This document shows positions 49,273 through 59,072 of a DNA stretch of 64,000 nucleotides, in pieces; position 1 is the first letter of the stretch, and each line of letters opens with the position of its first letter. The notes under the pieces are model-generated. The model did not search any database. It was not told the origin of the DNA and saw nothing but the letters and a program-made list of their open reading frames with translations. The stretch lies in contig NZ_CP047023.1 of assembly GCF_009796765.1 (NCBI RefSeq), positions 3,703,501 through 3,767,500 of the forward strand, read 5' to 3'. This stretch comes from Paraglaciecola sp. L3A3 (GTDB lineage: Bacteria > Pseudomonadota > Gammaproteobacteria > Enterobacterales > Alteromonadaceae). Position numbers and translations under genes: made by a program.

Positions 49273-49316
49273 TTTTAATCACACAGTCACAGAATTCTGT
49301 GACTGTGTGATTAAAA
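49273..49316. repeat. Perfect 44-bp palindrome before the guanidine riboswitch
   Basis: The centre is GAATTC (49292-49297) and the arms read TTTTAATCACACAGTCACA outward-in and its exact complement; all 22 base pairs match. It begins and ends with TTTT/AAAA, so it could act as a bidirectional terminator upstream of the riboswitch or as a large operator. It ends 10 bases before the first riboswitch hairpin. Confidence 0.85.
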
Positions 49317-49326
49317 TAGATTAAAA

Positions 49327-49378
49327 CCCGGGACGACTCGGGGTAGGCATAACCTACTAACTTCTCTGGACGGCCAGA
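49327..49378 (+). ncRNA. Guanidine-II riboswitch (mini-ykkC)
   Basis: Two hairpins with the diagnostic ACGR loops: P1 CCCGGG-ACGA-CTCGGG (49327-49342) and P2 TCTGG-ACGG-CCAGA (49365-49378), both closed by G-C pairs as in the guanidine-II family. The linker can form a third small hairpin, GTAGG (49343-49347) with CCTAC (49353-49357). The ribosome site of the first gene (AGGAG) lies about 21 bases after P2, so control of translation start is likely. The ligand in the family is free guanidine. Confidence 0.85.
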
Positions 49379-49409
49379 TAACATTTTGATTTTATATCAG
49401 GAGATTGTT

Positions 49410-50465
49410 ATGACGCCACATCCCTCAAAAGATAAACATACTGCATTCCAACAACTTCCCATTGTGGATATCAGTTTATTATCATCAGCCGATCTTTCAG
49501 AACGTAAAAAAGTAGCTGAACAGCTAGGCAAAGCGGCAAGTGAGGTGGGCTTTTTATATATTACTGGACATGGCATTTCAGCAGATATAATTAACCGACT
49601 AAAAGATAAAACCCGTGAATATTTTTTACAGCCTTTAGACACAAAGATGACCGATTATATCGGCAACTCTATTAACCATAGTGGTTACGTGCCCGAAGGT
49701 GAAGAACAACCTGACGCAGAATCAACTATGGTTGATAACAAAGAAGCCTATGATGTGAATTGTGATTTTTTAGCAGAAACAGGCCGCCGACCTATGTTAG
49801 GACCAAATCAATGGTCGGAATTAGCAGGCTTTAAAGAAGATATAAAAGCTTACTATGATGAAGCTATTGCTCTTAGTCATCGATTATTTAAAGGATTCGC
49901 TTTGGCACTAGGTTTAGCCGAAGACACCTTTGAATCAATTGTGACATCGCCGCCAAGTCAATTACGTTTAATTCATTACCCATACAATGAAATCAGCCCC
50001 GAAAATAGGCCTGGTATAGGGGCACATACAGATTATGAGTGTTTTACCATTTTATTGCCCACCGCCCCAGGCCTTGAAGTATTAAATGGAGCCGGTGATT
50101 GGATTGATGTGCCTTTAGTTGACGGTGCCTTTGTCATTAATATTGGCGATATGTTAGAAATACTAAGTAATGGTAACTTTGTAGCCACCGCTCATCGCGT
50201 AAGAAAAGTAGCAGAAGAGCGTTATTCATTCCCGCTATTTTGTGCTTGTGATTACGACACTGTTATCTCCCCCCTACCTGAGCTAATCGATCCTGATAAG
50301 CCAAATAGTTATAGCCCTCTGGCTTGTGGTGACCACCTTTATGCACAAACCATTCAATCTTTTGCATATCTAAAAAAACAACTTGCCGCAGGTGAGATCC
50401 AACTGCCAGAAGGATCAAAAAGTTTATCGTCATTTGGCTATAAGGCAAAGGAGAGCAATACATAA
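49410..50465 (+). CDS. 2-oxoglutarate/Fe(II)-dependent oxygenase (isopenicillin N synthase-like)
   Basis: 351 residues; ATG 49410 has AGGAG 7 bases upstream. The N-terminal segment LPIVDISLLSS and VGFLYITGHGIS, the metal ligands HTD in GIGAHTDYECFTILL near residue 207, the distal His in VATAHRV near 264 and RYSFPLFCACDYD with the 2-oxoglutarate-binding Arg show an intact active site of this superfamily. The family includes the ethylene-forming enzyme, which releases guanidine from arginine. Because a guanidine riboswitch precedes it, the substrate is probably guanidine or a guanidino compound; that is inference. Its stop overlaps the next start (TAATG). Confidence 0.85.
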   Translation: MTPHPSKDKHTAFQQLPIVDISLLSSADLSERKKVAEQLGKAASEVGFLYITGHGISADIINRLKDKTREYFLQPLDTKMTDYIGNSINHSGYVPEGEEQPDAESTMVDNKEAYDVNCDFLAETGRRPMLGPNQWSELAGFKEDIKAYYDEAIALSHRLFKGFALALGLAEDTFESIVTSPPSQLRLIHYPYNEISPENRPGIGAHTDYECFTILLPTAPGLEVLNGAGDWIDVPLVDGAFVINIGDMLEILSNGNFVATAHRVRKVAEERYSFPLFCACDYDTVISPLPELIDPDKPNSYSPLACGDHLYAQTIQSFAYLKKQLAAGEIQLPEGSKSLSSFGYKAKESNT

Positions 50466-51427
50466 TGCATTTACAAGAATTATTAGCCACTGAGATTAAA
50501 CCTGCAACCCAAGGTGTGCCCGACTGGATGCTTGGGTACTTTAAACGTTATGCCATTAGTTTTGCTGATGGACGAACCGATTTAGAAACCAATGTGTGTT
50601 GGTTACAAAGTCGGAATTTCACCCTCGATTTACGCTTACCTATTGCCACCCAACAAGTCACCGCTAAAGCTTGGCAAGATTACACAAAAGATGAGTTACT
50701 CGTAATGGCTGATTATGAAGGATGGGAAGCATTATGCGACTGGAAAGATGACATATTAAGTTGGCGAAACACAGACACTTCATTGCAACTTCACAATCGT
50801 TGGGTAGAGCCAGGAGTGCTGAAACGTATTGGTAATTGTATGATTGAATTATCACCAAGTGGGGCTTACGTGGAAGACTGGCGATTACAACCTTCTAGCC
50901 CAGGTCATTTAGTTGGCTTACGTTTACTAGAAGAGCGAGTAATTGAAACAGGCGAAGTACGACATAGTGGCGGTGGATTAATATTCTGTGGTGATTATGC
51001 AGGGCTTGTTTTAGGCCGTTCACAAACCGTAACAGCCACACAAGCATATAATTCATTAAGAGCTCAAGTTGTAGAAGCTCACGGACAGCCTGACAAATTA
51101 GCCGCTTTATTTAATTTTGAAACCTCTGTTGCCCAAGGTTCAATTAGCCAAGGTTATCGCATATCAATGTCAACCAAACCAGAACGTGTAGGCGAATACA
51201 TATGCCCACTCGACGGGTTTGAGTTTGTTGATATTAGTAGTTCAGAAGCACAATTAATTCGTCAAACATTAACCTTTCAGGGTGAACTTTGTGAACGCAT
51301 ATTTGAGGTCGATACGATCGAGCAAAACGTGGGATACGAGCAAGTAACTTCATTCACTCCCGAAGCTAAAACATGGTACCAGCGCGAAGAGAAAACCCTT
51401 ACCCGCTACTCAAAACCCATATTTTAA
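50465..51427 (+). CDS. Unknown protein of the guanidine-riboswitch operon (320 aa)
   Basis: Translationally coupled to the oxygenase by a one-base overlap and preceded by AAGGAG. Soluble, without signal peptide. It is beta-rich, with segments such as VLKRIGNCMIELSPSGAYVEDW, and SGGGLIFCGDYAGLVLGRSQT, and many regularly spaced Trp residues, which suggests a lipocalin-like or related barrel. I do not recognise a characterised family. Tight coupling to the oxygenase suggests a shared step or a partner subunit. Confidence 0.75.
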   Translation: MHLQELLATEIKPATQGVPDWMLGYFKRYAISFADGRTDLETNVCWLQSRNFTLDLRLPIATQQVTAKAWQDYTKDELLVMADYEGWEALCDWKDDILSWRNTDTSLQLHNRWVEPGVLKRIGNCMIELSPSGAYVEDWRLQPSSPGHLVGLRLLEERVIETGEVRHSGGGLIFCGDYAGLVLGRSQTVTATQAYNSLRAQVVEAHGQPDKLAALFNFETSVAQGSISQGYRISMSTKPERVGEYICPLDGFEFVDISSSEAQLIRQTLTFQGELCERIFEVDTIEQNVGYEQVTSFTPEAKTWYQREEKTLTRYSKPIF

Positions 51428-51470
51428 TTGTTAGCAAAAGCCATATTAAAAATATAAACGAGAAATAAAT

Positions 51471-52550
51471 ATGAAAAATTACCAAGCACAATTTTGTAAA
51501 ATAGTGATTATTTTAGTATCAGTATTCAGTTTAAGTAGCACAGTAAGTGCAAGCCAGAAAAAAGATTCTTTTAAGGTCGCTTGGTCGATTTACTCAGGTT
51601 GGATGCCTTGGGGTTATGCCACTGATAATGGCATCATCGATAAATGGGCTAAAAAATATGACATTAAAATAGAAGTCGTAAAATTGAATGACTACATTGA
51701 ATCAATTATTCAGTACACAGCTGGAGAATTTGATGCCTGTGGCATGACCAACATGGACGCTTTAACCATACCAAGTGTAAGTGGAGTAGACACTACCGGA
51801 CTTATTCTAGGTGATTACTCAAATGGTAATGACGCGGTCCTATTAAAAGAAGGTAAAACCTTTACTGATATTAAAGGGCAGCACGTTAATTTAGTTGAAC
51901 TATCCGTGTCACACTACTTATTAGCGCGAGGTTTAGATACCTATGGCATGTCAGAACGAGACATAAGAGTGGTGAACACTTCAGATGCTGATATTGTGTC
52001 TTCTTATGCCACGCCAGATGTGACCGCTGCTGCAGTTTGGAACCCACAATTAAGTATGATCCTAGATCAATATCCAGATGCCACAGCCGTTTTTACCTCA
52101 GCAGAAATTCCAGGTGAAATTATCGATATGATGGCGGTCAATACCGAGGTATTAAAAGCTAATCCAGACTTTGCTAAGGCACTAGTAGGAGCATGGTTTG
52201 AAACAATGCAGTTAATGTCAGCAAATACCGATGCCGCCAAAGCTGCACGCACATCTATGGCGCAAAATTCAGGAACAGATTTAGCTGGCTATGACGCACA
52301 ATTAAAACTAACTGAAATGTTTTACACCCCAGCAGCGGCATTGGCATTTACTACCAATAAAACCTTATATAACACTATGGATAAAATTCGTAAGTTTTCA
52401 TTCGATAAAGGTTTATTTGGCGCTGATGCATCCACACCAGATATAGTAGGTATTGAACTGACCGACGGTAAAGTATTAGGTGACACAAGCAATATTAAAT
52501 TACGTTTTAACTCTAAATTTGTCGAAATGGCAAAAAATGGTGAATTATAA
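51471..52550 (+). CDS. Periplasmic solute-binding protein, urea/guanidine-carboxylase-associated type
   Basis: 359 residues with a signal peptide ending VSA. The sequence FKVAWSIYSGWMPWGYAT, YIESIIQYTAGEFDACGMTNMD and GDYSNGNDAVLLKEG resembles the NitT/TauT-like binding proteins found beside urea (now guanidine) carboxylase genes. The role would be binding guanidine or a related compound for an ABC importer. No permease or ATPase gene is adjacent, so the partners are encoded elsewhere or are missing. It is third in the riboswitch operon, 43 bases after the previous gene. Confidence 0.8.
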   Translation: MKNYQAQFCKIVIILVSVFSLSSTVSASQKKDSFKVAWSIYSGWMPWGYATDNGIIDKWAKKYDIKIEVVKLNDYIESIIQYTAGEFDACGMTNMDALTIPSVSGVDTTGLILGDYSNGNDAVLLKEGKTFTDIKGQHVNLVELSVSHYLLARGLDTYGMSERDIRVVNTSDADIVSSYATPDVTAAAVWNPQLSMILDQYPDATAVFTSAEIPGEIIDMMAVNTEVLKANPDFAKALVGAWFETMQLMSANTDAAKAARTSMAQNSGTDLAGYDAQLKLTEMFYTPAAALAFTTNKTLYNTMDKIRKFSFDKGLFGADASTPDIVGIELTDGKVLGDTSNIKLRFNSKFVEMAKNGEL

Positions 52551-57373: not shown

Positions 57374-57388
57374 TTTTTTGTGGCGTAT

Positions 57389-57679
57389 ATGAGTTTTTCA
57401 CTTTTAGACGATACCGATGTTAGTCAAGCTTTTGCTATCCATTTGCGTGATTTACGTAAAAAAGCCAAGTTATCACGACAGGCCCTTGCCGAGCGCAGCT
57501 GTGTGCCTGCTTCTACACTTAAAAAGTTTGAGCTCACAGGACAAATTTCATTTCGCCAGCTGCTGCTATTGTGGCAATCATTAGATTCACTTGATCGGCT
57601 CTATCAATTGACCCAAGCAAGTTCTACTCGTTTAACTATACCAACCAGTATAGAAGAGGTGCTCAAAGATGAGCTTTAA
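57389..57679 (+). CDS. hipB: HipB-like antitoxin
   Basis: 96 residues from ATG 57389. The Xre-type helix-turn-helix covers residues 10-65: IHLRDLRKKAKLSRQALAER, VPASTLKKFELTGQISFRQL. It neutralises the adjacent HipA kinase and binds the operator ahead of the operon. Its end overlaps the hipA start by 11 bases, so the two are translated together. Confidence 0.85.
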   Translation: MSFSLLDDTDVSQAFAIHLRDLRKKAKLSRQALAERSCVPASTLKKFELTGQISFRQLLLLWQSLDSLDRLYQLTQASSTRLTIPTSIEEVLKDEL

Positions 57680-59072
57680 ATCAATTCAGCGGCTAGATGT
57701 ACAGCGTACTCTCGCAACGGGAGAAGTTGTCTCGGTAGGTGTGTTAGCGCAAAACAGTCAGGGAGTTTTCTTCCAGTACAATGAAGACTATATTGCTAAG
57801 TTTGGCAATTTGTCGCCTTTTACTTTGCAAACCGATGCACGACTACAGCCTGCCCCCAAACAACCACATCAAGGTATTCACGGCGTTTTTGGCGATAGCC
57901 TTCCCGATGGTTGGGGCTTGCTATTGCAAGATCGCGTGTTCCGTCAGCAAGGAATTCTACCTGCACAAGTGACGGCTATGGATAGGTTAGCGTTCATCGG
58001 GCTCCAAGGGATGGGAGCATTAACTTTCACCCCAACATCGGATTTCTGTCTTGATAATAACTCTGATATTGACTTAGCAACACTAGGGCTAGAAGCGCAA
58101 ACTTTATTTGATCAATCTGTGCTTGACTATAACCAAGCAGATGACTTAGACGGCAACACTCAACAGGTACTGGCAACTTTGGTTGCCGCAGGAAGTTCTG
58201 GAGGAGCTCGGCCAAAAGCACAAATCTATATGCCCAATGGAGATGCTCAGCATTGCCGCATTTATGCTGAGCAAGGAGATGAAGCTTGGTTAATTAAGTT
58301 TACCTCAGAGAACTTAGCATTAGGTCATGAAGAAGGCTTGTGCGAAGCCGTTTATTTACAAATGGCCGAGCAGGCAAAATGTCAGCCGCCTATTTGGCAG
58401 TTAATCGAAGCCCCCTCAAGCAGCGGTGCAAAAGCGTGGCTGGCACTAAAGCGTTTTGATTACTTACCTAATGTACAAAAACTCCCATCTAAATCTAAGG
58501 AGCCAAACTTACCAGGTGCTGGACGTTTACATGGAAGCGCTGGACGTTTAAATGGAAGCGCTGGACGCTTACATATGCACAGTGCTTGCGGGCTATTAGA
58601 TGCCGATTTTCGTAGCCCCAGTTTAGATTATAGCGACCTCATTAAAGCCAGTCGCCAATTATGTAAGTCACCTGCTGCTGGGCAACTTCAATTTCGTCGC
58701 GCTATGTTTAATCTATTTGCCGCTAATCAAGATGACCACAGTAAAAACTGGGGCTTTTTACAAGAGGATAACGGTAACTGGCAACTGGCACCTTTCTATG
58801 ATGTAACCTTTAGCCCTCACCCATTTAATCAACATGCTACTGCCTATGGTGGTTACGGAAAAACGCCACCGCTTAAAGTGATGCAAAAGCTGGCTGCCAG
58901 TGCAGGATTTGCAACTTGGAGTGATGCGCAAAAGTGCATCAAAGAAGTGGTTGAGGCAATTAACCAATTTACTCGACTAGCTCAGCAACAAAATATCAGC
59001 AAAACAACCATATTAGCGATACAGAAAACACTGGTTCAACGAAGACAAGAAAACGCAGTATTGCTGAGTTAA
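57669..59072 (+). CDS. hipA: HipA-like serine/threonine kinase toxin
   Basis: 467 residues. The N-terminal HipA domain (GIHGVFGDSLPDGWGLLLQD) is followed by the Gly-rich loop AAGSSGGARPKAQIY near residue 177, ATP-site Lys in WLIKFTSE, the catalytic loop AANQDDHSKNWGF near 353 and the metal-binding YDVTFSP. All kinase residues are present. E. coli HipA phosphorylates glutamyl-tRNA synthetase and causes growth arrest. An unusual in-frame triplication, AGRLHGS/AGRLNGS/AGRLHMH, lies at residues 284-304 just before the conserved HSACGLLDADFR motif. Confidence 0.88.
   Translation: MSFKSIQRLDVQRTLATGEVVSVGVLAQNSQGVFFQYNEDYIAKFGNLSPFTLQTDARLQPAPKQPHQGIHGVFGDSLPDGWGLLLQDRVFRQQGILPAQVTAMDRLAFIGLQGMGALTFTPTSDFCLDNNSDIDLATLGLEAQTLFDQSVLDYNQADDLDGNTQQVLATLVAAGSSGGARPKAQIYMPNGDAQHCRIYAEQGDEAWLIKFTSENLALGHEEGLCEAVYLQMAEQAKCQPPIWQLIEAPSSSGAKAWLALKRFDYLPNVQKLPSKSKEPNLPGAGRLHGSAGRLNGSAGRLHMHSACGLLDADFRSPSLDYSDLIKASRQLCKSPAAGQLQFRRAMFNLFAANQDDHSKNWGFLQEDNGNWQLAPFYDVTFSPHPFNQHATAYGGYGKTPPLKVMQKLAASAGFATWSDAQKCIKEVVEAINQFTRLAQQQNISKTTILAIQKTLVQRRQENAVLLS

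Follow-up and report, generated by a model that had tools for sequence, protein, structure and literature searches.

What does a guanidine-II riboswitch control when it stands in front of an oxygenase operon? The question is raised by a locus in Paraglaciecola sp. L3A3, in which such a leader precedes the genes for an oxygenase, a 320-residue protein and a periplasmic binding protein. The locus was analyzed within a 64,000-nucleotide stretch of contig NZ_CP047023.1, called here the window, which corresponds to positions 3,703,501-3,767,500 of a single-contig 5.31 Mb genome. An earlier note on this DNA had proposed an oxidative route for guanidine or a guanidino compound, with the unrecognised 320-residue protein as partner of the oxygenase. 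Demethylation of methylguanidine by the enzymes MgdH and MgdL is known in Vreelandella boliviensis (Sinn et al. 2025, Nat Commun; PMC12508155), where both enzymatic steps were demonstrated, as was the recognition of methylguanidine by guanidine-II RNA. Our analysis indicates that the Paraglaciecola operon is very probably a stand-alone module for methylguanidine demethylation that would feed a separate guanidine pathway. The idea of an oxygenase working on a guanidino compound together with the 320-residue protein was therefore kept, but guanidine itself does not appear to be the substrate, and the biochemistry had already been published.

A published primer was used to search 275 genomes of one family, which gave three matches. 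Locus L044 matches all four cloning primers exactly, has gca before and atzF after the enzyme pair, and was taken as the V. boliviensis locus. The window oxygenase contains the DIOX_N and 2OG-FeII_Oxy domains and is 57% identical to the MgdH of L044 over 346 columns. Its residues H206, D208, H262 and R271 are invariant among 18 aligned relatives (the rows of L013 and L014 are incomplete and begin at the first Met). By homology, the oxygenase encoded at 49410-50465 is MgdH, a predicted methylguanidine hydroxylase.

The 320-residue protein had no sequence match in Pfam, NCBIfam or the PDB, apart from two weak single-member Pfam matches (expectation value, E, 0.061 and 0.099) that were taken as chance. 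None was found in phages, and a class-wide sample contained it in 2 of 369 genomes, one being the window's own. Compared pairwise, it is 25% identical to V. boliviensis MgdL, which has 250 residues (E 5e-9). A profile-profile comparison of 15 long MgdL sequences with V. boliviensis MgdL and seven divergent ones gave a probability of 99.8% and E 6.5e-28. Variants of V. boliviensis MgdL at D49 and R51 were reported to be inactive (PMC12508155). Their counterparts in the window protein are D55 and R57, and both positions are invariant in 19/19 and 50/50 cases; L046 was left out of the protein alignment, since its frame contains stops at the coordinates used. The predicted model of the window protein (predicted local distance difference test, pLDDT, 94.1) consists mainly of strands and gave lipocalin-like matches, with D55 and R57 within or adjoining strand 52-58; a Foldseek search with it returned nothing at E ≤ 0.001. 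The protein may share the fold of yeast Hri1 (YLR301w). The alignments identify it as a divergent, long form of MgdL, a putative N-(hydroxymethyl)guanidine lyase. The coupling pointed out in the earlier note is real, and the junction of mgdH and mgdL is TAATG in the window and in the V. boliviensis locus. The note's description of the gene products also agrees with our matches, and we consider it right that the three genes form a single operon under the riboswitch.

The riboswitch had been recognised from a pair of hairpins, one with an ACGA and one with an ACGG loop, and both are present. An Rfam scan of the window gave no match above cut-off, and the model RF01068 scored 18.9 bits at this site against a cut-off of 32 (E 0.32 for 1 kb, 0.40 for the genome). 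As these scores leave doubt about the riboswitch, the leaders of relatives were compared. The relatives were 14 loci of the 320-residue protein in named genomes and three in the window's family; L015, whose contig starts within mgdL and lacks mgdH, was left out of the riboswitch count, leaving 16 complete loci, and plasmid rows were omitted from the structure alignment. Two ACGR hairpins lie 5' of the oxygenase gene in 16/16 complete relatives, and likewise 5' of mgdH on an Acinetobacter plasmid (L030). When these 17 leaders were aligned, 97.4% of cells were paired and 5 of 12 pairs showed compensatory changes on both sides, compared with 23-56% paired cells and 0-2 compensatory pairs in control structures slid by 1-3 columns. 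A measure of further pair types was not above shuffles in the same alignment (469/500).

A covariance model (R1) was built from the 17 relatives' leaders with the window excluded. It recovered the riboswitch site (30.4 bits, E 8.3e-6), and the rest of the window gave no match at E ≤ 10. Genome-wide, with 150 of 587 first-look candidates scored, the site was the sole match at E ≤ 1 (E 6.9e-4), and this search missed the genome's two other guanidine-II sites. A script for pairs of ACGR-loop hairpins on both strands (stems of at least 5 pairs, separation 12-60 nucleotides) found this site alone in the window, and one of 60 dinucleotide shuffles yielded such a pair. Applied to other loci of at least 9 kb each (457,384 bases in total), it gave 16 matches, all 5' of mgdH or gca. 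Chance hairpins were rejected on the basis of the covariation, the R1 match and the script scan. The covariance-model check suggested in the earlier note thus failed with the Rfam model and succeeded with the relatives' model. With RF01068, one of the mgdH leaders in 17 genomes scored above cut-off (G934, 33.0 bits), and those of G038, G050 and G078 were absent from its matches at E ≤ 0.5, the places being matched by hand. Like RF01068, the window leader has two GG-ACGR-CY hairpins; it differs in the longer linker, with 33 nucleotides between the loops (26-47 in the 17 relatives). The mgdH leaders also often have a third hairpin after P1, the first of the two, and mostly fall under the Rfam cut-off.

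Folding predictions suggest how the leader could act. In the predicted ligand-free fold of the window leader, the Shine-Dalgarno sequence lies in a hairpin and the second riboswitch hairpin, P2, is unformed (z -3.35). This platform hairpin is predicted to cover the Shine-Dalgarno AGGAG (49399-49403) together with the A and U of the mgdH start codon. The Shine-Dalgarno sequence was mostly paired (at least 3 of 4-5 bases) in 16 of 18 predicted leaders, P2 was unformed in the minimum-energy fold of 12, and 15 had a linker helix of at least 4 pairs directly after P1, with differing letters. The predicted folds would fit translational control in which the ligand stabilises P1 and P2. Guanidine-II RNA of V. 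boliviensis was reported to bind methylguanidine and guanidine alike (83 and 93 µM), and its guanidine-I RNA was reported not to bind methylguanidine (PMC12508155). That the mgdH leaders of all 16 relatives belong to class II fits this difference between the classes.

The operon was then compared with the V. boliviensis locus. Both share the order mgdH-mgdL, the overlap of the two genes, guanidine-II control and homologous enzymes. In V. boliviensis, however, the pair lies inside the carboxylase operon, between gca and atzF, whereas in the window it stands apart, as an operon that has a guanidine-II leader and a binding protein of its own. Such a free-standing riboswitch-mgdH-mgdL operon, found in Pseudomonas, Gilvimarinus, Haliea and the window's family, looks new. 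Searches of an open-access library turned up no account of it; the supplementary homologue alignment of PMC12508155 may include these proteins, and by term search 'Pseudomonas' occurs in that article in the reference list only. The halophiles with methylguanidine use named there are Vreelandella and Salinisphaera (PMC12508155). The co-occurrence proposed in the earlier note was borne out: the pair recurs behind the same riboswitch in 16/16 relatives, with the binding protein as third gene in 13 of them.

Some other pairs were observed along with these. On the plasmid of Acinetobacter sp. NCu2D-2 (L030, 6874-9163), the guanidine-II riboswitch, mgdH and mgdL are followed by a small multidrug-resistance-type exporter gene, and atzF and a binding protein are on the opposite strand. 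Two Novosphingobium plasmids (L029 and L031) carry mgdH-mgdL pairs in which guanidine-II hairpins are absent; in L029, a TetR gene precedes. Within one family, seven genomes out of 275 carry a divergent MgdH/MgdL-like pair (L028, L038-L043), among them G860, taken as V. boliviensis. Its neighbours are a divergent LysR gene, a polyamine-type ATP-binding cassette (ABC) importer and mostly a class II aldolase, and guanidine-II hairpins are absent here too. The catalytic Asp and Arg are retained in 8/8 rows of alignment A4. This divergent pair possibly demethylates another compound.

The earlier note had stated that no guanidine-catabolic enzyme was present. This holds within the window but not for the genome: 0.7 Mb away lie a guanidine-I riboswitch, a binding protein, a permease, an ATPase, cgdA, cgdB, a guanidine-II riboswitch, gca and atzF. 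The genes of this carboxylase operon were named by homology and order, with gca, cgdAB and atzF after the published operon. The third guanidine-II riboswitch of the genome (36.7 bits) precedes the gene for a 104-residue small multidrug-resistance-type exporter. The cgdA gene is present in 16/16 other genomes carrying the mgdH-mgdL pair. Of the 295 genomes that make up the family sample, 18 contain cgdA (E ≤ 1e-40) and four contain MgdL (E ≤ 1e-20), all four being within the 18; the probability of this overlap by chance is 1e-5, or 1.6e-4 when the window's genome is removed, with relatedness ignored. In G038, the pair lies immediately 5' of the carboxylase operon. In the remaining 15 genomes, pair and operon are separated by 1.2 Mb or occur on different contigs (these are draft contigs, and in G078 they may be linked). 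Among carboxylase operons from outside the window's genome, a guanidine-I riboswitch leads 7/7 that were inspected (L025, L092-L097).

The binding protein matches TIGR03427, a putative urea ABC transporter substrate-binding protein, with 516.2 bits against a cut-off of 333.9. No permease or ATPase gene adjoins it in the window. Beside the binding-protein gene, no homologue of either was found in nine Pseudomonas and two Gilvimarinus loci, and two Haliea loci have only more distant ATPase homologues on the opposite strand; three family members lack the binding protein itself. The window protein is 60% identical to its paralogue in the carboxylase operon of the same genome, which contains an ABC importer of the TIGR03427 type. 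Both proteins belong to the same family, but the window protein lacks adjoining transporter genes and clusters with the orphans of mgdHL operons: in a tree, a single branch separated the orphan from the carboxylase-operon proteins (support 78/96, and 99% of bootstrap trees; the L018 row is incomplete and begins at the first Met). The protein may be a receptor dedicated to methylguanidine and make use of the importer of the carboxylase operon.

Taken together, the operon could work as follows. The guanidine-II leader would sense guanidine, and probably methylguanidine, and make the mgdH ribosome-binding site accessible. In the periplasm, the orphan binding protein would catch methylguanidine (or guanidine), which it probably passes to the permease and ATPase of the carboxylase operon. 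With 2-oxoglutarate and O2, MgdH would hydroxylate the methyl group, and, by homology to the V. boliviensis enzymes, MgdH and MgdL would convert methylguanidine to guanidine and formaldehyde (PMC12508155). The guanidine could then be broken down to ammonia and CO2 through Gca, CgdAB and AtzF, and methylguanidine would in this way serve as a nitrogen source. The substrate in Paraglaciecola, the role of the binding protein and the details of the switch are the parts of this scheme that we infer.

Several observations weigh against methylguanidine demethylation under guanidine-II control. The riboswitch scores under the Rfam cut-off, two of the 18 leaders are predicted to leave the Shine-Dalgarno sequence exposed, and six minimum-energy folds contain P2 (L006, L007, L009, L020, L021 and L030). 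MgdL is only 25% identical to the assayed enzyme and 70 residues longer. Finally, nine distant pairs (two on Novosphingobium plasmids and seven LysR-linked) have no guanidine riboswitch hairpins. The earlier note counted genomes with the three genes and without a guanidine riboswitch among the findings that would refute its proposal; the riboswitch is present at 18/18 closer loci (the window, 16 relatives and the Acinetobacter plasmid) and missing from these nine more distant pairs. The enzyme pair alone therefore does not fix the substrate, and the assignment is carried mostly by the riboswitch and by the identity of MgdH to the V. boliviensis enzyme.

The low identity of MgdL and the divergent pairs, which have other transporters and no guanidine riboswitch, would also agree with methylguanidine as a side substrate of enzymes that demethylate or oxidise a different small guanidino or amidino compound with an N-methyl group. 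N,N-dimethylguanidine is an example, which V. boliviensis MgdH also accepts (PMC12508155). We consider this improbable, as N,N-dimethylguanidine was reported to be inactive on the guanidine-II riboswitch and MgdL was reported not to accelerate the decay of its hydroxylated products (PMC12508155), and as the riboswitch stands 5' of the pair in every complete relative. Very improbable is a guanidine-producing operon, in which the oxygenase would release guanidine from arginine or homoarginine, hydroxylating them beside the guanidino group like an ethylene-forming enzyme or plant 2-ODD-C23. Among solved structures, the best match of the window oxygenase is indeed 9ovh (168.5 bits), an ethylene-forming enzyme of ancestral type, but natural ethylene-forming enzymes among the matches listed reach 42-60 bits; the full-length similarity to MgdH is closer, and an MgdL partner with the catalytic pair and an import-type binding protein do not suit guanidine production. 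A new oxidative route for guanidine itself, which would agree with the guanidine riboswitch and the window's lack of a guanidine-cleaving enzyme, is hardly credible given the carboxylase operon in the same genome and cgdA in 16/16 other genomes with the pair.

Within methylguanidine demethylation, a further reading is tentative and on balance unlikely. The leaders with the long linker and third hairpin might form a guanidine-II subtype that in practice senses methylguanidine, perhaps even in preference to guanidine. With a binding protein dedicated to methylguanidine, the operon would then be a complete unit for sensing, capture and demethylation that feeds the separate guanidine pathway. Class II would serve mgdHL operons because, unlike class I, it accepts methylguanidine.

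These results would extend methylguanidine use from a few halophiles to free-standing operons in the genera named above and the window's family, and this wider spread suggests that bacteria encounter methylguanidine in ordinary habitats. They show why standard RNA annotation overlooks the switch, as 16 of 17 leaders do not pass the Rfam cut-off. The orphan protein family and the binding protein are now named in a directly testable way, and the division of labour between the guanidine riboswitch classes is a testable point as well. The features of the locus are collected in Table 1.

Table 1. Features of the putative methylguanidine operon (coordinates of the window)
Feature	Coordinates	Strand	Basis
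P1 hairpin of the guanidine-II riboswitch, CCCGGG-ACGA-CTCGGG, 6 pairs, loop ACGA	49327..49342	+	sequence, covariance model
Linker hairpin GUAGG/CCUAC immediately 3' of P1	49343..49357	+	minimum-energy folds
P2 hairpin of the guanidine-II riboswitch, TCTGG-ACGG-CCAGA, 5 pairs, loop ACGG	49365..49378	+	sequence, covariance model
Predicted ligand-free expression platform, AUAACAUUUUGAU paired with AUCAGGAGAUUGUUAU	49378..49411	+	folding prediction
mgdH, predicted 2-oxoglutarate/Fe(II) oxygenase, 351 residues	49410..50465	+	domain matches, homology
mgdL, predicted long form, 320 residues, start overlapping the mgdH stop (TAATG)	50465..51427	+	homology, aligned D55/R57
Orphan periplasmic binding protein, TIGR03427 type, 359 residues	51471..52550	+	curated model match

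Shortly 5' of the riboswitch, a perfect palindrome of 44 nucleotides was observed (49273-49316). It is not a T-tailed terminator, and its arms are unique in the genome save for one half site with 2 mismatches; it may be an operator or a leader hairpin. Other Rfam matches in the window (microRNA and small nucleolar RNA families) came from this palindrome or from A+T-rich DNA and were taken as chance. Farther downstream, at 57380-59072, a small helix-turn-helix-like open reading frame overlaps a larger HipA-like one (both named by eye), and the larger frame holds a short in-frame repeat, GSAGRL.

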